This document shows, piece after piece, positions 6,940 to 42,942 of a stretch of DNA of 64,000 nucleotides (position 1 is the first letter of the stretch; each line of letters opens with the position of its first letter). Below the pieces are notes generated by a model. The model made no database searches. It was not told where the DNA came from and saw only the letters and a program-made list of their open reading frames with translations. Origin of the DNA: Tubulanus polymorphus. Its lineage: Eukaryota; Nemertea; Palaeonemertea; Tubulaniformes; Tubulanidae. The stretch lies in contig NC_134025.1 in assembly GCF_964204645.1 (NCBI RefSeq), forward strand, positions 25,202,001 to 25,266,000. Direction: 5' to 3'. Position numbers and translations under genes: made by a program.

Positions 6940-9900
6940 TCAAGGCATATGTGTAGCCAATGGTGCCCTTTGAGGCATAGCATATGGAGCACCAAGAAAC
7001 TGATCAGCTATTCGCCCAGCCTCGCGTAGTCCGCTTAACAATGCACCATGTACAGTTGCAGGGTAGTTTCTGATAGTGTGCTCCCCCGCAAAAAACAGTC
7101 TAGGCATATGAGCTGAAGTTGTAGGTTGTCCTGGAATAGGCGGATTTGAGGAAACAGGGCTAGCCATCAGGTCATAGTCATTACCTATAAAATATCAACA
7201 ACGCGTACAGTTTATTCAAGTCGAAAGAATTGCAGGGCCAAAGGAATTCTATTGTATGAAGTAGGACTGATAAGTTTTACCTGAAGAGCCAGCTGCTACA
7301 TAAGAATATGAACCTCTAGACCATGGGTCAGCTCTCCATCTTGTAACAACTGTTTCTTTTGGCTGAAAACGATTAAAATCCAAGAAATGCAATACAGAAG
7401 ATGCTCAGAGAACAAGAACTTGATACCAAAATTATACTTGTTTATCTTGGATTGTTAAGAATTCTGACCTGTGGAACTGCATTATTTCCAAATATTCCTT
7501 TCAGTACGGCCAGGGAACGACCAACAATTACATCATCGCTAACATTCTCCATTATGGCAGCTGCTTCTCCTGCCACAAGAGCCAATAATACGGGAGCCTT
7601 GTATAGGTTCCAGAACAAAAACAGTTCGCCTCTACTAGCTGTTGTACTACCAACATGACCAAACAGGTTAGCATTAGGGTCCCAAAATACTCGATCAAAG
7701 CATAAAACAACCTATAAAACACAAAATAAGAGTTCAAGTTATAAGTATAGGTGTATAAAATGTATTTCCAAGAAGCCAGCAATCTCATTATCTACCAGGC
7801 AATCTTTTTTGCTAAATAGATACGTACAAATTAATGAGTATCAAGTTATGAAAAACATTTACCTTATTGAGATTCCCAAAACCCATTCTCTGAACGGCTG
7901 ATGTTTTCCACTCGGGTAAAGGAGGAATGAACTGCACTGCATTTACTCCATTGCCGCGTAGGGTTTCCTTCAACACGCCGAGAGGTAGTGTACACAATAC
8001 TGCATCGCCTTTATAGGAGATCGCGTTCGTGTTACTTCGGGAATGAGTGCAAACAACTTCAACAACTGCAATGATAACAACTGAAATTTGTATTCTGCTG
8101 CACTTTATCCTCAAATCCTATCCATCATTACCCCTTCATAGAGCTCCTATTCTCATCGATATAGGGGTTTTAAGACTCACCGTTTCCGTGATAGATGACT
8201 TGTCGCACAGCGGTGTTTAACTTGATATCGAGACCTTCGGATAGTGCGACCGGTACGCAGGAATAACCATTTCTCACTAGATATTCAAACAAAATATATT
8301 TCCAAATTGTCAACATGAATTTTACGAACGCAATTGAAAACTGGAGATACGATACCTGTTAGATGACTTCCAGAAAACTCGAAATCATCATCTTGATCCC
8401 AGTGTTTCAATGACAGTGTTGATAAAGGTGTGGCATTAGCGAATTCCAAATTAGCAAAATGCCAGTCCAGTATTTGGCGGTCCCTTGATGACAAGTACAC
8501 ATCACTGAAATCATGAGCATTTATTCAAAATTTCAGCCATTTCAACAGAATGAGCTAATATTACTACAGATTCCATTCTCACCTCGGAGGCGAATCTTCT
8601 AATTCCTTCAATTTTCCTTCTATTTCCTTCTGTTTTTCAACCAAGATGTCAAATTCCTGGAAAGAATTTTATCATTGATTAAATGCGTGAAAATGCTGTA
8701 TGCTTGAAAATTAATCAGAGTGTAGCAGACCTTTCTGAACTTGATACTGATTAGGTCGTCATAAAATATCAAATAAGGTTGAAATTTTCAGTGTAAAACG
8801 AATAACAAAACAATATGGAAGAATTTAATGGCAAAATCTACTGTATCCTATATTTTCCCCAAAATGACGAAATTACCTTGCATTCAACATTGAGATCCCG
8901 GAGTTTACTACGAACGAGGAATTCTGCTGTGATGTCACGAGGCTGTTTTACATCTTTTGCTTCTTGATATTGTTTCTTTAACTCATTGATTTTCTCTCGA
9001 CGTGTGACCATCTGAAAAACAATCATTTCATGTCTCCTGACAATCGACATTCAAATCAGATTCAATCGAATGTAAGAATCAAATTATAAACGTACCTCAT
9101 CTTGACAAGATTTCAGTTTTTCTTGCATTTCGATTATGCTTTTCTGATATTCGATCTGTTTTTCTTTAACATGTTTTTCTTGTAATCTACAGAATTATCG
9201 ATATTCACTTTAAAATACCATCGACTACGCAACGCAATACTGACTCTATAGAACCGATATTTTACATACTTAATGACTAGCTCCAGGGACTGCCCTAAAG
9301 TGACTGGTTTACTGCAGATGAAGTTGAAATCCATTTGATGAGACATATATGACGTTGATTCTAATAATCGATTGAATTCGCGTTCGACCATTTCATCTTT
9401 GTCTTTTGGTACTGTGTTTCCATTAGATTCATAGAGGGGACATTTCTGTTTAATCTTATGCAGAACCATATTCACTTGTTTGCTCAATACGGTTATAGGA
9501 TTTCCACCTGTGAATGATTTTGTGAGAAAATGATTATTTTCTCTTAATTTCTTAAAACTAAAAACGCAGTCAATGCGACAAGGCAATTTTACCTAATCCC
9601 GTCACAACCATGGCCCCTAGATCAGCTATGTAGTTATCTTTCCTAAACGTTGCCACTCGACCGCCTACCCTGTCCTGAAATACAAGTATAAACTTGAACA
9701 CTTCTGAAATTTATGGACAATGCATGAATGGCTATGTTTTTACAAGTGGATCAAAAATCAGAAATGGTTACAATCCGATCGCTAGACTGATCAACTGAAG
9801 GTAATGTGGTACTTACCCTCGCTTCAAGTATCACAACTTCCATTCCAAATGACGTTAATTGCCGAGCAGCTTCAAGTCCTGACACTCCTGCTCCAATGAT

Positions 9901-18720: not shown

Positions 18721-20274
18721 CGTTTTTAGTTCCAGTTGTTTCTATAGTTTGGATGGAAATTTGATAGCGGATTGAACATGAGGAGTCTCACTGAAAGTAG
18801 ACAAAATACATCAGTATTTTGCAACCCGAAACAGCACCGCACTCGGAAAGGGTTATGCGCCTATTAACTTTTTCGAAGCAAATCGCACGAATTTTCCATT
18901 AGCACAATACGTGTACACTGCTCATGGAATGAACGACATGCAATATTCAACCGATTGGACCATGTTCTACTAAATCTTGATTGTTTAAGTAAGCAAAATC
19001 CCACACCGAAATGTTTCCTAGAGTCAATAGTTGATTCAATGTTTCGACTTAATCTTAATAGTCATTTCCAGGAGCATTTCCTTGAGCTGTTAATTCATTC
19101 AACGTTTCGACTATATCCTAATAATCATCTACAGTATTCTTGAAGGTGACTTTATCAGAGTATACAGTCGAAACATTGCATAAACTTTTAACAAAGAAAC
19201 ATTTCGGACTTCATTTGCTCATGATTAGTGTGGGATTTTATACATTATCGTCACAGCAAGGACACTAGTGCTTTCTTGATTGTTAATTTCGAAAAGAACC
19301 CTGCAGCTCGAAAATCACATAACATTAGTTTACTAACGTTTTGTGCATGCATACGCATTTGTTAGAAAAAGAACTATATGAAAAAATCCCAACTTGCTAG
19401 ATATTTTTCCATAACTTACTGGTTTGACACGAACGAAGCTTTTGGCGTAAACAACGATATATATGCGCATTTCGTTTAGTTCGACTTGTTTTTGTTTTTT
19501 TCCACTACGATGTTGAAAAGGTATCAACGATAACGTTGAAATCATTATTTCAAATGCGACTCAAGCAGTTGTTTGGGTCTTGCCAACAAAAATCCCGATA
19601 TAAAATCTCTCGGAAGACCCAAAAGATCGTTATGTATTATAACTCGGTCTAGTTTTTTGATTCTCGATCTGTAAATCAACGGTTTAATTCATGATTTAAA
19701 CTATTAAAGCTCGAGGGTGATAATTATCTAGTTCCGAGTGTAGTACTGTAAGGTTGTCGTCACCAAGCGACACGATATACCAGTACAATAAGCGACGCTT
19801 CACTTCAATGATTACATACAGGTCGTTCGACAACATTCGTGACACGCTGTTTTATGTTTCTCGGGGCCCGGTTATAAATGTTTTAATTATTCGCCTGTAA
19901 TAGCCAACGCGAAGTCTTGTAAACTATACATATAACGGGAGCGTTTTGAAATGTAATGCGGCGAAGAAGGAAGCGCGTCGGAAGCAACAAGGTGATCACA
20001 GTCGTTTTAGCGCTCGAGGAGAAGCTTTCGGATTATCAGCTGAAGTTGACATAGCAACTAGTGAAGCGATAAGCGAACATTTCCGTACGTAGGCTCGCGC
20101 GATACCAGCAACAACAGGGATATATCGTTTCAATTATTCAAAAGGGATGTTTCCATACGAGTGAACAAGAAGGTTACGTCAGTTTGGCGGTTTTTTTCTG
20201 TGAACATAAGTCCGACCGCAGACGATGTATCAAAACGGAACATTCGCTCCGTGCAACAAGTATTTGGCGCGAAA
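18721..20274. other. intergenic region upstream of the CFAP97-annexin gene
   Basis: No supported exon. It contains a nested foldback sequence (18995-19239). The last few hundred bases (about 19900-20274) should hold the promoter and 5' UTR of the following gene; I see no clear TATA box. Confidence 0.5.
18995..19239. repeat. nested foldback (inverted-repeat) element
   Basis: The outer arms are 18995-19017 and two split blocks on the right (19196-19207 and 19228-19239), sharing CCGAAATGTTTC and AAAATCCCACAC in inverse orientation. The inner arms CAATGTTTCGACT (19037-19049) and its complement (19166-19178) form a second perfect 13-bp pair. A diverged direct copy, CAACGTTTCGACT, lies at 19100-19112. 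The pattern suggests a decayed foldback or MITE; no family is assigned. Confidence 0.45.
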
Positions 20275-23200
20275 ATGGCACGAACACCAATTGAAGAAAC
20301 ACACTCACAGGGTAAGAAGGACAAGTATTTTCAATATTGCGCATATTCTTTTAAGAGCTATAAATATCAGTCACGGGATTCTATATGTCGGGTACATCTG
20401 TCGAATTTTACAATTTGGTAAAAGTATTTGATGATTATTGTGACATATGTCCGGCATCCTATTTTTCTGGCCAGCTGGCCTAAAAAAAACCTTGGACATA
20501 TTTCATTTTCATTGGTACAAGCGTTGTCGTCGTCGTCGTCGTTATATAAGCTATTTTTTGTATTCGCTATGTTATAGCGAGATTGTTTCCTTCAGAAATA
20601 TTCTTCAAGCGGAAAAAGCTATATTTCTAGAAGTCGCTTTGAGCCGGTTTTTCATGCATTTACAATAGTAAAATAGGTTAAATGCTATTGAGCCGTGGGG
20701 TTATAGAGATTAAGGATAAAAATAAGCAATCTTCGGAACAAGCTATCGATGGAATTAAATATTCCCCCATTTTCCATTTCTACTTTTAATACTCATTTGT
20801 TCTTTCTTTCCTGTTTTTCTATACGATATGATCGATAATCTTTGTTTAAGATTCGCCATGTGAAAGGCTCTTTAGACATGAGTCCCCCGAAGCGATATCC
20901 ACATTTAGAAATGAGACTGAAAAAAATTCAGGTAAGACCAGCCGAATTAATACCAGCCGATCAGTACCATACCAGTAGTTACATAGAGCAGATAGTACAA
21001 TATATAAAATAATCACGTAAAGTACTACTGCCAGTAGATCATAATTTATCCAACAGATATTTCAGGCATTTGTTTAATAAGATCATTAATCGATGGTGAA
21101 TATACAAACACTGCCGTATTCAATATGGAAATATCAACATTTCATTTGACTATTGCAATCCTGTGGCATAAACCCGGCAAATAATGGTGACATTATACAT
21201 CGTAAAAACAAATATTGGAATCCAGTCACCAAACGGTATAGTCTATTATGAACAGCCCTGAGTGAATGGAGACATAATAATGTGATGAAAGAGATCCTCT
21301 CATTCGATTCACGACGTAATAAAACCACTAGTAATGAATCTGCATTTTTTTTCTCATAGATGGAAGAAGACAGACAGGCCCTAGTCGAAAAACATAACAA
21401 GCTACTTTTGCATAAATTGACAGATATAATGAGAAAACCAGCTAGAATTGATCACTGGAATGACTATCAGCAGAAAAGGTAGAAAAGCAAGAATATGATA
21501 AGTTGAGGATATTGGTGATGGGCGATCTTCCTACCCACACACTCCTCTATTCGTGGTTTCGTGGGGGTCAGTTCGTTGTCCAAATCTCTAAAAATGTTGA
21601 AGTTGAATAACAAGTACATAAGTTGTCCCTCTTTTTTGTCTATCGAAGTCAATGAACGGAATGATTGCTATATGATTAATCACATCAAACATTTTTCTTC
21701 ATTTTCCCCGTGTGGAACTAAGTTCATAATTGATAGAGTTCCTAATCAACGCGTAACGAAACGGTGAAAGCACCGATATTGTAATTAAGGACTCCTTGGT
21801 GTTATTTCTGACAACTTTTCTCGTTTTTAGACGACATTCAATTGATGTCCCGGCGTACAGGTAATACAGAATCTCATGTATATACGTATTATACATACAC
21901 GCCTTCTATACTATTGTATATATCACTTTTTTACATGTATTCACTGCCGCAAAATGTAGCAAATCAACGCTTTTTACTGTTCGACATTATTCATTAATAT
22001 TTCATTGAAAAGATTTTCGTTATCTGCAAAGCAACTAGTCTATGGGGCAATATTGTTCTTGCTTTTTCTTAATCTGCCTAGCCGCTTTCAATGAACTTAA
22101 GAATTAGTAGAAAATATATCCCTTTCCAAAAACCTTCTTACTGTAGACCCTCGTTAATACGAATCATCTGGCGGGCATCGTATTATCCAAATCTGGACTG
22201 ATATGAATATGTTAGCTGGGACATGCTGGGAATCATCGTAATAAACGAGTTTCGTTTTTAAAAGAATCGTCTTAACGAGGTGCAACTGTACAAATGTATG
22301 GAATAAATCAGCTTTTGTCACAAATAGATATATTATGAATATCAACAGAAACGCGTGTGGATAGAACTTGCATAATTGCGGAATTCCATACATAATATGG
22401 TTATTTGATATATTCTTACAGTTTAAACCAACCGGCCAGACAAAAAGCGCTCGAGAAAATTGTTTCCGAAAATCAACGACTTGCCTTTAAATTAGAAAAT
22501 GCGAAACCCATTATCAACAGGAAGGAAATGGTAGGTTTTTTCGTATATTTCAATCGACCCTTAAAAATCCGATATGATGTATGTTACTTTCAGTAGCGAT
22601 ACCGTGATGTAGCTATAGCGACGAAGCTATAAATAAGTACTGAATGTGTTTGTCCCCCTGATGTGAAGAGGTTTTTAAAGTGAATGACTTGCTATCGAAA
22701 ACATGTCAAACACCGAATTGATTAAAAATCTTTAAGCGTTGAATATGTATCGAGTTTCATTTCGTTTGCAGGAAAAATCTTTTAAAAAACATATGAAAGT
22801 GAAGAGAATGCTTGCAACAGGGGATAAAGACTTCCCTACAACTCACCAGCCAATCAGCTATCACGATTATTGTAACAGAAGGGATGGGAATTACAGCGAT
22901 AGTTGGGAGGTAAAAGAGCATTACAATCTGAAGAGTTTACTGGGGGCAAATTTACTGAATTTTTGCGCGGTGGAAATTATTTTTTTCAAAATTAACAGCA
23001 GATTTGGGGCTTGACATGAACGGTATTAAAAGCGAAATGACTCAATTTGAACATATCACGGTTATTTTTGTTTTACGGTCTATGACGGAAATTCGATCTT
23101 CCATTTTCAAGTTGGAAATTTGATACCAACTACACACAAAAAGAGGAAATTGAACGTGTGAAAGTTGTGCCAACCAGGAAACAGTCATGAATATTTATTC

Positions 23201-26200
23201 AATCCATGATTCAACCACCGACGAACTGAGCCCAGAATTGTAGTAACTGTATATCCTTGGCAACTAATGCTCGTGGGCAAAATATTGTGAAGTCTAAATA
23301 GTGGATCTATTTTCAGTCTTTGAGTGAGGATGAAGATGCTGGGAGGCAGAGAACTGATCGTTCACGTTCACCAAGCCCAGTGTCAGAATATGCAGGATCT
23401 CAAGATCTTAAAACAAAACAGGTAGCAATGACCCGTGTTTCCAGGTTTTTGGAACTTCCTGCTGCTGATTGTGCTAATTCTTTTGATCGTATTTAGGATA
23501 AGACGGGGACCAATCGAAATGCTAACGTACCGAGGTTTCCTCAAATCAAAGAAAAACCAGCGAAAGCAGTTAAGGTGAGTTTTGATCGAGGCTTAATAAA
23601 AAGCTTAGAAGATTTTTTTCGGAGCTATCGTCTGCCGAGACGCGCGCTATACTGATTTCAGAATTAATGGCGTATTAACCGTTTACAGGACGAGAAGAAA
23701 ACGCAAGCTGATTTGGATGCAAAACAGCTATTCAGAGCAGTGAAACATTTAGGTAAGTGCTAGTCGGCAAGAGCGACAAGGAAATGAAGATTGATAGGTT
23801 TATCCATGGACTCTAAAGCAAAACGTCATATTAGAGTCCATGCTTTTTCCAATAAAATGCGTCACGCCGCTGATATATATCCCTTCAACATTTCATACAA
23901 TTATCGTCTTACCCAAATGAAATGAACTGCGGTATACATAACTTTTTCGAGGTATCTATTATATATCACTTTATTATTCTATCGACAGCCGATCCCGAGG
24001 AGACATTACTGAAACACTTTGCCAAACGATCCTACATTCAACGAATGCAGATATCTGACAAGTTTGAATATTTATATGACCTGGTAAGGGAAGTGACAAT
24101 TCCGTATTGTCAAAGCAAAAATGTGTAAGCACACACATATACATTGAAAATCAACTATTGCCTAATAAAATGACACTCGACATTTGATCAATGTTTTTTT
24201 TAGGAATTAGGGGAAGAATTGAAAGAATGTTTAGGAAGTAAATATTTTGCGCTGATAGATGCTTTACTGCAAGAAAGTAACAGTAAATCACATTTGGAAA
24301 CAGCAGAAAAGCTGAATACTGCTATTGAGGTCGGTATCTAAATTCTTTTAGAGAATGATCCCTCGAATACTGATACATTTACGATCTTTGTTTCGTGGTT
24401 GTAGACTGAGAAAATTGATGAAGTCATCGGCGTTGTAATAGCAGAAGGGAAACACGATTTATTATCCTTGAAAAATGTGTATAAACGAGGTATGAAATAT
24501 TTAATTGATTTATGCGTGAGACTGTTTGTTGTTTTCTTCATTCGGAAGTTATTTTTGATGCAGAATTCAAGCACACAGTGGAAGAAGATGTGAAAGAATA
24601 TATCAAAAATGAAGATATCAGAAATCTGTTGTTAGTACTCGTTCAGGTAAAAAGTGCGCATGTAAATAGAAATATATAATATATCTTTATCACTATGATA
24701 TACAAGATCCATTTGGCGAATCCTCGTCTGAATTATATAAAATACTTGATTTGTTGATGAAGTCGTCATGCGGAACATTTTGCAGAAAGACGTAAGCAGT
24801 ACCGATCCAGATCCGATCCTTGCTGAGAAAGATGCGAAGGAATTGTATGAGGTAACTTACATATAGTTGTGGCCTGAAAATTAGTCATTCTTAACTTTAT
24901 GTATTTGTAAACATGAAACAATTTTCATACATTTTTAGGGAGATGAGGACTGTTGGTATTCGGAATCTGGCACGTTCTTGAAAGTGGTAAAATTAAGAAG
25001 CTATATGCAAATATTGTTGACCTTTGAAACGTACCAAGATGTAAGTTGGACTTAAGTTCAGTTTCAGTTAGCGGTTGATATTCGTCGATGGTGTTCAATA
25101 AAACAAAACTATGATTACGCACTTCAGTATTTTGGATTTTCTTTCGGAGTGAAGTTTCGAATTTTAACCCGTATTTGTTTGAATCTTCCAAAAAGGTTTC
25201 CGATGGACACGCGATAGCTGATACAGTGGCCGCTGAATGCTCAGAGGAGTACGCAACAGCCGTCAGCAGTTTAGGTAATACTTCTCCATGAATAGAAATA
25301 TCTGAAATATCTACATTTATGCAAATTCTTCTATTTCTGCTATTTGCATCATTTATCTGGAATGTTATTGTTTATTTACGACAGGAACCCAAATAAAGGC
25401 CAGTAACCATGGTAAAGCCGAAAACTTGTTCAAAGCGGCCAATAAACCAGATGGCGGGAAGCTTTTCATCACCTTACTTTTGCAAGCATCAGAGGTTAGC
25501 AAAATCACTGGTCGAGTACATCCATTCTTTCCAGAAATTATCTGAAACCTATGGTGGCTGATTCGGATTACGCTGATATTTTTCAAACATTAAATAAATC
25601 TGAAAACAAATTTGATAGCGATAAAACATATTGACACGAGAATAAATATTCCCGAATCAGCCACCATAGAAATTCCCATCTAAAATTTGCATTTCATTTT
25701 AGGGTGATATGCCTGCGGTAAAACAAGCGTATCGCGAGAAGTATAAAGTGGAACTGACCGATACGATAATTGCAACTTTCAAATCACAGCTCGGACGAAT
25801 TTTGATAGAAATTGTTCACAGGTCCGGAAAAACTGCAACTCACAAAAAGGTAATTATAGAAGTTTTTACTTTTTGCGGAAGATTTTATTTGATAACTTAA
25901 AATTTTTCTATTCAGCAGCAGGGTCCGAGAAGACTTGGCGGCATGACTATAAATCCACCTAAACAACAAAAACCGCTAGCAAAACCAAGACAACAGTATG
26001 CACAAAAAGATCTACACCACCCCCTAAATCAACCAGTTAAAAAGAAATCAAACGCGACAAAAGATGCTAATCGATTGGATGATACGTATGGTGAAGCGGA
26101 CACGGCTGTTAGGAGATTTGGTAAATATCGTTTATACATAAACCATGCAGTTGATATATTAATTTTACAGATACGTAGCTGATGACCGCTAATGATGTGG

Positions 26201-27729
26201 TCGAAACGGCGTTGTTTTCAAAATATATATTCTATATAATTTCTACTTCAAATAATTCAAATTTTTCTTTGTGCTTTTTGTTATCATACACTCTTAACGC
26301 ATCCGGTCTATGAAATCTGAAGTTTCTATTTTGATGTTACGTATTTGCCATAGCTGAAAATGAGAAGATAATCGAAGAGACGCCTGAAGAGGAAATACCT
26401 GATGACGACTGTAAGAGAATATACGATGCGATGCAAGGTCTGGGGATAGATGAAGATATGATTGGAGAAATTCTCACCACGAAAAACTCAAAAGAACGCA
26501 TGGAACTTAAAATGATCTACAAAGATAGATACAATCAGGTTTCACTATCACCAAGTTTTATTCATTCAACGTAGATTTTATCATTTCTTACACATTTAAC
26601 TTCTTTCAATATTCATTTCGCTCAGGATTTATTGGAAGACCTGAAAGCTGAACTTCCGAATAATTATGCAGAGTTGCTGACTGGATTACTAACAGAATCC
26701 GACCGGTATATAATAAAAACTATCCATGATGAATTACGCGATGAGACTCAACTAATTGGAATCCTTTGCTCAAAAACATCCCAAGTAAGTAGACTAACCA
26801 AAAAAACCTTATTCGAAACTTTGACAATACTTACACCTTTTTCTAAAGCTATCGATGCATTTTCATCATTTCAGAGGTTGAAAGTACTTATCAATAAATA
26901 CAATGAACAATTCAAAACAGATTTACTGAGTGATGTCAATAGAAATTCAAGTAAACTGTTAAGTAGCTTGTTAAGCAGTTGCATAGATTTCGGTGTAAAG
27001 TCTCGGTTTGATGAGGAAAAAGCAGAAAAAGACGCCGAAGAAATTTACGAGGTAAAATTCGAGCTTTATTAGAAGAATGTAAATTTTCATTTCGGTGACT
27101 CAGGAATGAAACATTATTCCAATCGTCGATTGATTTATCTCCCACGATTTATCGTTTTTTGATTTTCCCCTGATAGGAACTGATGGAGGAAAATGTTGAT
27201 ACTATCGCTAAAGTGCTATCCAGTCATAACGCCGAACAAGTAAAGGCGACATCTAACGCTTATGAAAACCTCACTGGCAACAGTATCGCTGATGAATTAG
27301 AAAAGACTTTCAATTCTTCTGAGAAGTCAGCATACGTAACTGTCCGTAAGTTATGCCGTTAAGGCCACAATTCATTTTTTCCTTGACAGATTACGGAAAA
27401 AGCAGCTCATCTATTTTTAGTCGAACTGATCGAAAACCAAAACGATTTCTTCGCCGATCAACTACATAGTGCTATACAGGAAGTTGGAAGCAAGCAAAGA
27501 TTTGTACAAACAATAATCCAACACATGGATGTAAGTTAAGAAAAAGTAGTAAATGAAAAATAGTCCTTTCGATTCCTTGACTTGATTGTCACTCGAATCT
27601 TTTTAGACTGATTTGTCCGCCATCGCAAGAAAATATGAAGAGAAATATGGCGAATCACTGAAGTCAGCAATAGGCGATGAAATAAACGGAGATTACGGCA
27701 AGATGCTGACAAGACTAATACAGAAATAA
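20275..27729 (+). CDS. CFAP97 (hemingway) domain fused to eight annexin repeats
   Basis: Twenty-four exons: 20275-20311, 20876-20931, 21360-21478, 22422-22530, 22772-22909, 23317-23421, 23497-23574, 23689-23752, 23989-24083, 24204-24329, 24405-24489, 24564-24646, 24786-24851, 24939-25040, 25196-25274, 25385-25494, 25703-25849, 25916-26120, 26354-26538, 26626-26784, 26875-27051, 27177-27335, 27390-27530, 27607-27729. Phases close throughout, giving 915 aa. Residues about 18-115 are a CFAP97/hemingway domain (PHLEMRLKKIQMEEDR, LTDIMRK, SLNQPARQKALEKI), a family of sperm and ciliary axoneme proteins. A disordered Ser/Pro/Lys linker (about 150-215) leads to annexin repeats 1-4 (about 222-527), a basic Pro/Gln linker (about 530-610), then repeats 5-8 (about 613-912). 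The 8-repeat core resembles annexin A6 in layout. Only repeat 5 keeps a near-canonical loop (MQGLGID plus a downstream acidic residue). The start is the first in-frame ATG. The exon 1 join and the acceptor of exon 18 (tandem CAGCAG) are the least certain points. Confidence 0.88.
22141..22288. mobile_element. second TA-flanked MITE, intron 3 of the CFAP97-annexin gene
   Basis: A 148-bp element between TA dinucleotides (22139-22140 and 22289-22290). Its imperfect terminal inverted repeats share ACCTCGTTAA/CCCTCGTTAA followed by an ACGA block. It is non-coding, like the element at 17346 in size and target site but different in sequence. Confidence 0.5.
23805..23842 (+). repeat. perfect 12-bp hairpin in an intron
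   Basis: CATGGACTCTAA (23805-23816) and its exact complement (23831-23842) flank a 14-nt loop in intron 8 of the CFAP97-annexin gene. No function is assigned. Confidence 0.5.
25549..25669. repeat. perfect 18-bp inverted repeat in an intron
   Basis: CTATGGTGGCTGATTCGG (25549-25566) is exactly complementary to 25652-25669, with 85 bp between, inside intron 16 of the CFAP97-annexin gene. It is most likely a very short MITE or foldback. The pairing outside the 18 bp is weak. Confidence 0.6.
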
Positions 27730-37500: not shown

Positions 37501-39330
37501 TCCTTACTGATACATGGAAATATATCATCTACGCCAAGTTTGATTTAGCTAATGGGTGTATTCTTCAATTTGTGTTTTTAGAACATTGGTTTCCAAAATA
37601 CATAGCCGATTTAGACGACTGCGTTCATCTTATTACAAAATTCGAACCGGAACTAGATACAGACCATCCGGTATGTGGCGATGTCTAAGCTCTATGTTTC
37701 GTGTTTTTTTATTTTCTAGTGAACTGATAAAAATGAGTACTCGTTTGAATTCTTATTGCAGGGATTCTGCGATCAAGAATACAGAAAGAGAAGAAAAGAA
37801 ATTGCCGACATCGCATTTTGTTACAAATAGTAAGTCAAATTGGGGACACTGTGGCGTTCACTTGGAAGTGCATGAAGTTTTTGGGTAATAGTTATGATCC
37901 GAATTATCTTCATTTTGTCAATTTCAGTGGGCTTCCAATTCCATCAACTACGTACGCACCAGATGAGATTGATACATGGTATGTGACGTGTATTATGCAT
38001 TGCATAAATATTTCTTACTTTCATTGAAAACTTGCATTTAAAAATATCTCATCATTGCTCTAGGGGACGCGTGTACAGAAAGCTTGTTTCCTTATTTCCT
38101 ACCCATGCCTGTAAAGAACATATCGAGGTTTTCGAGCTGTTAGAAAAAGAATGTGGCTACAGCCCAGACAACATTCCGCAATTAGAGACTGTGTCAAACT
38201 TTCTCAAGAGTAAGTGCCCGATTCTTGACAAATTTAACCCTAATGTCACAGACCGTTTTTCTTTACCTCTTCCCGCTTACTTATTTCAGAAAGAACTGGA
38301 TTTCAACTACGTCCGGTTTCGGGATTATTATCAGCCCGAGATTTCTTAGCCAGCCTCGCATTTAGGGTGTTCCAATGTACGCAATATGTGCGCCACAGTT
38401 CTAGGCCATTCCATTCACCAGAACCGTACGTTCAGTAATATCCTTTCTTCAAATGTTTCCAACGAATAGAAATCAACAACATTTCATTCTATCGTCACTC
38501 ATTTTGCAGAGACTGCGTTCATGAATTACTTGGGCATATTCCTCTCTTAGCCGTTCCTAGTTTTGCCGAATTTTCCCAAGAGTTAGGTCTTGCCAGCCTT
38601 GGGGTATCGGACGAGGATATCGAAAAGTTCTCTACCGTAAGTTTATAAAAAAAAGAATATTCCAGCTTTCACGAGGGGTTTTTTCGTCGTTTTGAATTTC
38701 ATTCTTGATGATTTCCAGCTGTATTGGTTCACCGTAGAATTCGGCCTCTGTAAACAAAATGGCGAAACACGGGCAATAGGGGCTGGTCTCCTATCATCGT
38801 TTGGTGAACTGGAGCACGCCCTCTCCGGGGTACCGGAAATAAAACCATTCGATCCAGTCACCACAGCAGTCCAAGAATACCAAGATCTCACTTATCAACC
38901 CATATACTTCCTAGCTGAATCATTTGATTCGATGAAACAAAAGATGAGGTACGTATCTAGGAAGTACACACATGTGTATATAAAAAACATCTTTGTTTCC
39001 TGAGTTGTCTATTGTAAAATAACACATCTATTCCCAAGAATCGGAATATTTAGGATTTGAGTTAATTTTGAATGGATTCTTAGAGATTAGTTACATTGGT
39101 ATGCATTTCTTTCTAGGGATTACGCCCAGTCCATCAACCGACCGTTTGAGGTGAGTTACGACCCGTTTACGCAGACGATTACCGTTCTATCGAATGAGCA
39201 GATCATTTCGCAGACGTTGGAAAAACTGCAAAAAGAAACCGGTCATTTGCGAAGAGTGATCGAACGTATGTCTTTGTTGTCACACGACAAAATCGTCGAA
39301 ACGCATTCGAAAGTTGTGAATACAACATAA
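31543..39330 (+). CDS. TH: tyrosine 3-monooxygenase (tyrosine hydroxylase)
   Basis: Cytosolic, iron- and tetrahydrobiopterin-dependent enzyme making L-DOPA, rate-limiting for catecholamines. Eleven exons: 31543-31617, 35445-35744, 36734-36926, 37582-37670, 37762-37829, 37928-37978, 38064-38209, 38290-38425, 38510-38636, 38719-38948, 39117-39330; 542 aa. The N-terminus carries [12 protein letters not shown], equivalent to the vertebrate Ser40 PKA site (Ser34 here). An ACT-like regulatory domain spans about 108-175. The catalytic domain has [36 protein letters not shown], the iron ligands His357 and His362 (HELLGH) and Glu402 ([12 protein letters not shown]), with the same 5 and 45 residue spacing as in human TH. 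A C-terminal tetramerisation helix follows. TH is favoured over tryptophan or phenylalanine hydroxylase by SEPDC-like [24 protein letters not shown] and YQPIYF. Intron 1 is 3.8 kb. Confidence 0.97.
31618..35444 (+). other. large first intron of TH
   Basis: 3.8 kb with no credible exon on either strand. It contains short open stretches only by chance and a palindrome ACGACGTCGT near 33112. It could hold neural enhancers; nothing specific is recognisable. Confidence 0.5.
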
Positions 39331-40746: not shown

Positions 40747-42942
40747 TCACATTTCAAATGCAAGATAATCTTTCAATTTTGAAGGCAATGTCAATCGTGA
40801 AATATTAGCTTCAATATTTCCACAATTCGTATACATCTGCTGGCGTAGTTTGATTCTCACCAACGCTTGTAAACTCAGCGGTTCTTCCAACGCGACATCT
40901 ACAACCGCAGCTTGAGAATTGTTCACCAATTTCCTGACCTGATTAACGAGACCGCAATTTTTCAGCAATAATAAAACATCTTTTCCGAAGTCTTCGTCGC
41001 ACAAAAATCCGAGATCAATACTAACATCAGGATCCAACAGTCCGCATAGTTTCTTTCCGACATGCGTACCTAAATACGGATTATGACGCCAAGAATTTAC
41101 GAGGATATTGAAATTTTCGATAATTCCTGGCAGTTCGGATTGCTTACCGAACTTAACGACCTTTTCGAAAACGATATCGATAAAGTTCATGTAATCGAGC
41201 GAAGTCCATCCGGTTTCAGCGTCGAGTGAGTGAATATCTTTCAGGACGCCGAGCATGTTCGATATTTCGCAAGGCGACGTATCGGGTACGCTGTCGAATA
41301 AACACTTCACTAAAGGTAGTTCGAATTGACGCCACGCTTTTCCCGCGTATCCAAGATTGAAGAAATCGTAAACATCCGTGATTTCATTTACGTCCTGGTT
41401 AAATATACTGCCTAAGCTATTGTCGGCATTCTTCGTAGGTTCCACTGTGGTGAACCCATCCATGATGACGTGACTGAACTCGTAATGAAAACTTTCACCT
41501 TCACGAAGCCCGGCTTCGATGATGAGTTTCATTATTTCTACTTGTCTCGATTGGTCGTAGTAATTATCGGCTTTCAAATGTTGGAAAGCGGCCAACAACG
41601 GAGAATTGTAACCGAATAAATTGAAATCTTTTAAACACGGATCAGCACCTTTCGACAAGAGATACCTTACAACGTCTAAATCACCTTTTGAACACGCGTT
41701 AGATAACGGTGACTGCCCATGACAGTCTAACACATTGATTTTCGCTCCTAGTTCTAAGAGCGTACTGACAATCTGCAAGCTATTTCCTTTCAGTAGAGTT
41801 GCGAAATGTAAAGCAGTTTTCCGATTGCCATCGGCAAAGTTTACATCGACGCCGAGTTGTTGAATATAAAGTACGTTTTCTAATTTTCCACCGATAACGG
41901 CCGAATGCATCAACGCTTTACCAGTCTGCGCTTTGGCTATCGAAACAATAGTTTGTGGCCAGTAACTTAGCAATAATTCCATCATATGTTTATCGGAACT
42001 ACGAGCGGCTACACTAAACACCGTAGATAACAAATTCATCATCTCTTCACCATCGATGAGCAATGACTCGAGTAGAATTCGAACGATTTCTAGATACCCG
42101 TTCTCAACCGCGTCGCGCACCAACGGAACGATATCAGTGGCCGTTTTCAAAGACTTCGATGGTAAGGCAACTTGAACGATACCTCGATGTCCTAATATAC
42201 ACGCCGTATACAGAAAATTCCTACACAGTTCTCCGGTAATGTTATTCACGAGGAAAACCTTCGCGACATCCGGTTTACACGACGGCCATTTCTGGCACAT
42301 CAGTTTGATTTGCTCCGTCGGAACGATACCCTTCAGTTTATCATGCGTTAAGATGATTTTGCACAATTCAGCGTTACCAGTTCTATACGCGTGTAACAAT
42401 AATAAACTAAGCGTTGTACGTGGAAAATCGATAGGGTAAGAGCGTTCATTATCGGCTATGAAATGCGCTAAATCACTATTTTGTTGTTCAAATGCAGATT
42501 TCAGGCACAGAGTCCAATGTAGATCGACTTCATATTCATCAAGAATTGTCAATACATTGATTTCATCATCAGATAATTTGTTAGATTTGCAGCGCATAAC
42601 GCATCGAATTTGATCGTCATGAAAAAGTTGATTTCCGACTGGTGGAACATAGTTCTCCACTAGGCTTAGATGGTTGAACAATAGTCTTAGCATTGACCAG
42701 TGTGATTGGTCAATTGCGAGATTGAGAAGTCTCGACCAATATTCATCATTTGCCGAAAATGATGCGTGCCGCAAAAATGATTCAACGATATCACAATTTC
42801 CTGATCGTACGGCAAAATAAGCCGCAGATTCGCAGTAAGAGTTCAATGGTCGACAGATATCGATTCCAGGCCGAGTTAACAGTTCCCGTACTTTCGTTAC
42901 ATCAGATGCCTCCACGGCTAAATAAAGAGCTCCAAGATCCAT
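40747..42942 (-). CDS. ankyrin-repeat protein with C-terminal SOCS box (ASB-like E3 substrate receptor)
   Basis: A single uninterrupted 731-codon coding exon. Clear ankyrin repeats lie about 370-480 (KTALHFATLLKGNSLQIV, LELGAKINVLDCHGQSPLSNAC, DLDVVRYLLSKGADP), with weaker helical repeats through the N-terminal half (CDIVESFLRH, AELCKIILTH, YLEIVRILLES). The C-terminus matches a SOCS box: PLSLQALVRIKLRQQM (elongin BC box; the usual Cys is Val), then LTLPSKLKDYLAFE (Cul5-box region of ASB proteins). ASB proteins recruit substrates to elongin B/C-cullin-5 ubiquitin ligases. The exact ASB orthologue is not assigned. A splice-acceptor-like TTTCAG ends 8 bp upstream of the ATG, so an intron probably interrupts the 5' UTR. 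The gene is head-to-head with NADSYN1. Confidence 0.85.
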   Translation of the reverse strand: MDLGALYLAVEASDVTKVRELLTRPGIDICRPLNSYCESAAYFAVRSGNCDIVESFLRHASFSANDEYWSRLLNLAIDQSHWSMLRLLFNHLSLVENYVPPVGNQLFHDDQIRCVMRCKSNKLSDDEINVLTILDEYEVDLHWTLCLKSAFEQQNSDLAHFIADNERSYPIDFPRTTLSLLLLHAYRTGNAELCKIILTHDKLKGIVPTEQIKLMCQKWPSCKPDVAKVFLVNNITGELCRNFLYTACILGHRGIVQVALPSKSLKTATDIVPLVRDAVENGYLEIVRILLESLLIDGEEMMNLLSTVFSVAARSSDKHMMELLLSYWPQTIVSIAKAQTGKALMHSAVIGGKLENVLYIQQLGVDVNFADGNRKTALHFATLLKGNSLQIVSTLLELGAKINVLDCHGQSPLSNACSKGDLDVVRYLLSKGADPCLKDFNLFGYNSPLLAAFQHLKADNYYDQSRQVEIMKLIIEAGLREGESFHYEFSHVIMDGFTTVEPTKNADNSLGSIFNQDVNEITDVYDFFNLGYAGKAWRQFELPLVKCLFDSVPDTSPCEISNMLGVLKDIHSLDAETGWTSLDYMNFIDIVFEKVVKFGKQSELPGIIENFNILVNSWRHNPYLGTHVGKKLCGLLDPDVSIDLGFLCDEDFGKDVLLLLKNCGLVNQVRKLVNNSQAAVVDVALEEPLSLQALVRIKLRQQMYTNCGNIEANISRLTLPSKLKDYLAFEM

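Follow-up and report, generated by a model that had tools for sequence, protein, structure and literature searches.

Mammalian CFAP97D1 is a sperm-specific protein of the outer surface of the doublets that is lost together with TSSK6 and EFCAB3 (PMC13066092, PMC13406575), and its loss impairs fertility (PMC13066092, PMC7444823, PMC13406575). In the fly, CFAP97D1 is located in chordotonal cilia, and sperm flagella need Hemingway (PMC10425847). Annexins have also been placed in axonemes: those of diplomonads lie along the outer doublets and are tubulin-associated (PMC4863580). A 2014 survey stated that additional domains in eukaryotic annexins had not been described so far (PMC3894181), and the fusion of an axonemal domain to annexin repeats would therefore be a new annexin architecture.

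The 64-kb stretch of DNA analyzed here (the window) contains such an arrangement. As an earlier note on this DNA had proposed, a CFAP97 domain and two annexin tetrads are encoded in one 24-exon frame. We estimate a probability of about two in three that one gene encodes a chimeric protein of the axoneme, docked by its CFAP97 domain, a domain that binds microtubules in sperm tails and cilia, and with an octad of annexin repeats as a mostly calcium-independent scaffold. The note knew of no described protein with this order of domains, and a search of the open-access literature likewise found no CFAP97 domain joined to an annexin; the three papers containing both words dealt with extracellular vesicles and breast cancer cells. 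It may well be that annotated genomes already contain the architecture without its having been noticed. Within the genome itself (268 Mb, 77 contigs), several other CFAP97-type loci (on C5, C6 and C9) and nine other annexin genes were detected, and no second copy of the fusion was found.

Gene model

The features of the locus are as follows, with exon numbers referring to coding exons, exon 1 being the one that contains position 20878.

19759-19771 (+): motif resembling an X-box (RFX), GTCACC-A-AGCGAC, in front of the gene, possibly a chance match
20275-20311 (+): putative first exon, whose ATG opens a 51-codon frame apart from the main frame
20878-20931 (+): coding exon 1, main start codon and beginning of the CFAP97 domain; the exon itself starts at 20851
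21360-21478 (+): coding exon 2, 119 nt, CFAP97 domain, with length and phases as in two CFAP97 paralogs
21831-21860 (+): coding exon 3, 30 nt, doubtful, placing 10 extra aa at a junction conserved in CFAP97 genes
22422-22530 (+): coding exon 4, end of the CFAP97 domain
22772-22909 (+): coding exon 5, C-terminal extension of CFAP97, free of stops up to its donor; the next in-frame stop, at 23012, is in the intron
23317-23421, 23497-23574 and 23689-23752 (+): coding exons 6 to 8, linker without methionine; helix A of annexin repeat 1 is in exon 8
23989-25849 (+): coding exons 9 to 17, annexin tetrad 1 (which begins in exon 8), its nine internal introns placed as in canonical annexins
25916-26120 (+): coding exon 18, basic inter-tetrad linker rich in Pro, Lys and Gln
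26354-26538, 26626-26784 and 26875-27051 (+): coding exons 19 to 21, annexin tetrad 2
27177-27335, 27390-27530 and 27607-27729 (+): coding exons 22 to 24, annexin tetrad 2, with the stop codon at 27727

Spliced together, the 24 coding exons from 20878 to 27729 form a single open frame of 2739 nt that encodes 912 aa and ends with a TAA stop codon at 27727-27729. The length of 915 aa given previously has to be corrected because the frame continues into exon 23 only if exon 22 ends at 27335 (AC|gtaact); an exon 22 extended to 27345, before gtaagt, was rejected because it breaks the exon 23 frame. The start codon also differs from the one in the original model. The ATG at 20275 is out of the main frame when the donor at 20311 is joined to the acceptor at 20851, and the frame that it opens closes in exon 2 after about 51 codons. 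For this reason we interpret the exon at 20275-20311 as 5' UTR carrying a short upstream frame, or else as another or wrong leader. Upstream of exon 1 the main frame soon closes, and the first ATG in it is the one at 20878.

The 30-nt exon 3 of the original model is doubtful. CFAP97 sequences from mammals and sea urchin, aligned to the window with introns allowed, pass it over and continue from exon 2 straight into exon 4. The codon score of exon 3 is neutral. Lacking both homology support and a coding signal in the codon statistics, it is probably a cassette or a false exon, and the protein would be 902 aa long if it were left out.

Strict X-box matches occur twice in the 64-kb window and five times in 63.7 kb of other loci, and the upstream RFX motif was discounted as support because of this similar rate. 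Other genes are recognizable elsewhere in the window: a single-exon open frame of 731 aa with ankyrin repeats and a C-terminal SOCS box (40747-42942, minus strand), exons of a biopterin-dependent aromatic amino acid hydroxylase (38008-39003, plus strand), and an exon of a flavin amine oxidase that is LSD1-like by eye (7812-8117, minus strand).

Two halves and the join between them

The profile searches that the earlier note had suggested for the translated model detected both families. Residues 2-92 of the full model match Hmw_CFAP97 (PF13879) with an E value of 2.6e-15 and 57.4 bits, against a Pfam cut-off of 25.6 bits, and cover profile positions 15-99 of 100. Good matches to the first 150 residues in the Protein Data Bank are exclusively CFAP97-type chains, the CFAP97/CFAP97D1 chains 8snb_4T, 9v10_Aa and 8otz_Z matching the N terminus with E values of 7e-11 to 4e-10. 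The gene structure is also that of the family. The 119-nt exon 2 is common to the fusion and the CFAP97 paralogs on C6 and C9, and it is joined directly to the SLN exon, as in both of these CFAP97D-like paralogs, provided that exon 3 is skipped. The C6 gene has a stop codon shortly past the domain; the fusion does not have that stop, and its exon 5 is open up to a strong donor (score 10.3). The two paralogs (L027, C6:6.974M; L028, C9:14.266M) are well conserved and 62 to 70% identical to a sea urchin sperm protein, and another match to CFAP97, on C5, could be the Hemingway gene. The CFAP97 part of the fusion has diverged to 34 to 36% identity with its relatives.

For the annexin half, the full model matches the Annexin profile (PF00191) with an E value of 9.7e-50 and 167 bits, and six repeats are significant alone. 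Tested apart, the tetrads score 63.5 bits (tetrad 1) and 122.6 bits (tetrad 2), both above the annexin cut-off, and each aligns over nearly its whole length with solved four-repeat annexins. The best solved match to the annexin part in the Protein Data Bank, extending over both tetrads, is annexin A6 (E value 6e-53). Using a spliced protein-to-DNA aligner written for this analysis, we modeled the nine other annexin genes of the genome, on C2, C4 and C6. All nine internal introns of tetrad 1 match introns of these genes in both alignment column and phase, those at columns 62, 104, 134 and 265 being found in nine of nine genes and that at column 30 in eight; in tetrad 2, two of five internal introns are held in common. 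The genome's annexins include a tandem cluster of at least four genes (C4:23346300-23392300, L021-L024), two of which encode proteins 92% identical, suggesting a recent duplication. There is also a second degenerate annexin (C2:23034000-23038000, L025) with four repeats, a canonical calcium site in repeat 4 only, and a long branch.

The exon-intron organization of the parent family is thus retained in each half of the fusion, and the halves look like members of two gene families that were joined at the DNA level together with their introns, which is the origin that we infer. A duplicated CFAP97 gene would have lost its stop codon, and the stop-less copy would then have been spliced onto a downstream annexin gene, or onto two. 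The annexin tree cannot tell which annexin gave rise to the tetrads because both evolve very fast, with branches of 6.7 and 4.4 changes per column compared with a median of 0.6. The tetrads do not group with the halves of annexin A6, and on such long branches their placement is unsure, with no supported grouping. Branches of this length would also be expected of a decaying, functionless gene fusion; against that explanation stand 2.7 kb of coding sequence in 24 exons free of stops, with good splice sites throughout, and a true frame scoring well above its alternatives in nearly all domain exons. We regard decay as very improbable.

The single-gene reading depends on the join between exons 5 and 9. 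Exons 6 to 8 contain no methionine, as the note had correctly observed, and in-frame methionines are absent as well from the upstream extensions of these three exons. Neither family gives support for exons 6 and 7. The codon use of the linker exons resembles that of coding sequence: exon 6 scores above 97%, exon 7 above 93% and exon 8 above all of the open intron segments, although for exon 7 another open frame has a slightly higher score. The phase 0 acceptor of exon 8, which lies immediately before repeat 1, is matched by one in some of the canonical annexins, whose own start codons are in earlier exons. Among ATGs from 22900 to 23985, none with a donor score of at least 5 splices in frame to exons 6 to 9; one candidate appears at a donor score of at least 2 and 13 at a score of at least 0, and alternative annexin first exons in this interval were rejected as weak-donor candidates only. 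Unspliced extension of exon 9 upstream to the ATG at 23922 would lose exon 8 and hence the first helix of repeat 1. A separate gene for the second tetrad was rejected too, since the intron between the tetrads, from exon 17 to exon 18, is 66 bp long and leaves hardly any room for a gene boundary.

The claim that the annexin part has no obvious start of its own therefore holds for an intact annexin starting between the halves, but not further upstream, where two methionines of exon 5 and an ATG at 22745 in intron 4 are in frame. These starts make it conceivable that the locus gives two overlapping products, a CFAP97-only protein from retention of the intron after exon 5 and an annexin-only protein from an internal promoter, with the full fusion made rarely or never. 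The annexin-only product would start at a methionine in exon 5 or at 22745, and would carry the CFAP97 tail without the CFAP97 domain. The 407-bp intron after exon 5 has its in-frame stop at 23012, followed by ATTAAA at 23025; however, ATTAAA or AATAAA occurs every few hundred bases in the window, so that the hexamer is no proof of a 3' end, and the exon 5 donor is strong. Beyond exon 5 there is no usable start for an intact annexin, and any such annexin would begin at or inside CFAP97 coding sequence. A scan of the gap for promoters and terminators of bacterial type, which is unsuited to an animal gene, was at chance level. We consider two overlapping products unlikely and the production of a fusion transcript highly probable. 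Homology, conserved introns and the lack of a usable annexin start between the halves favor the domain order and the single gene that had been proposed, and on this sequence evidence the join is supported, not proven.

Calcium sites and proposed role

A type II calcium site was defined as a GxGT loop with an acidic residue about 39 residues on. By this definition none of the four sites of tetrad 1 is kept, and in tetrad 2 there is a near-canonical site in repeat 5 (QGLGI with the acidic partner E) and a partial one in repeat 8 (EVGS with E). In repeats 1-4, 6 and 7 the GxGT loop, its acidic partner or the two together are missing, and the canonical site is absent from seven of the eight repeats. 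The annexin half is an annexin by fold but probably not a normal calcium-dependent membrane switch by function. Loss of type II sites may be compatible with other calcium or membrane binding.

The role first suggested for the protein was to tether an annexin scaffold to cilia or the sperm tail, or to link the axoneme to the membrane. Axoneme docking by the CFAP97 domain can fairly be inferred, because CFAP97D1 has been solved on sperm doublets as a protein of their outer surface. The membrane link is weakened by the absence of the canonical calcium site in seven of the eight repeats. Calcium-regulated tethering of the axoneme to the flagellar membrane would be in keeping with the complete annexin fold of both tetrads and with what repeats 5 and 8 retain; against it, the remaining six repeats have lost their sites, both tetrads are acidic (pI 5.3 and 4.7), and most of the nine other annexins of the genome, unlike the fusion, keep all four sites as judged by eye from the same table. 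Such a tether seems to us improbable.

In the chimeric axonemal protein that we favor, the N-terminal CFAP97 domain would dock the protein on the outer surface of the axonemal doublets of sperm or cilia, both the site and the partners being predicted. Binding by this diverged domain may be altered. Having lost most of its normal capacity to bind calcium, the annexin octad would serve as a scaffold contacting other axonemal proteins, and the near-canonical site of repeat 5 would permit at most weak calcium-regulated binding. Only tentatively do we extend this to a conserved protein in which a largely calcium-independent annexin octad is a structural part of the axoneme, anchored by CFAP97 on the outer doublet surface. 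If the model is correct, the protein would provide a direct handle on annexin function in flagella, with the CFAP97 part predicting its position on the doublet, and the locus would represent a fast-evolving sperm or cilium gene built from two duplicated gene families.

Comparison with known CFAP97 proteins and annexins

The fusion has the whole domain and the family exon structure in common with CFAP97D1, CFAP97, and Drosophila Hemingway and CG14551. Its CFAP97 part is about 35% identical to sea urchin and mammalian members, and the two other CFAP97D-like genes of the genome have diverged less. The CFAP97 relatives that were retrieved, such as the mammalian CFAP97D1 chains of 164 residues, are without annexin repeats.

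Annexin A6 (PDB 1avc, 1m9i) likewise has two tetrads in one chain. The fusion differs from it by the N-terminal CFAP97 domain, the long basic linker between the tetrads and the loss of most type II sites. The nine other annexins of the genome have four repeats and mostly intact calcium sites, and their intron positions and phases are like those of tetrad 1. Eight of them are 43 to 92% identical to one another, whereas the tetrads of the fusion are 18 to 28% identical to the nine. The closest precedent for the proposed role is provided by the flagellar annexins of diplomonads, the alpha-giardins and Spironucleus annexin 3, which are axonemal and associated with tubulin (PMC4863580). A CFAP97 domain is not mentioned for these proteins (PMC4863580), and the likeness is an analogy of role, not of descent.
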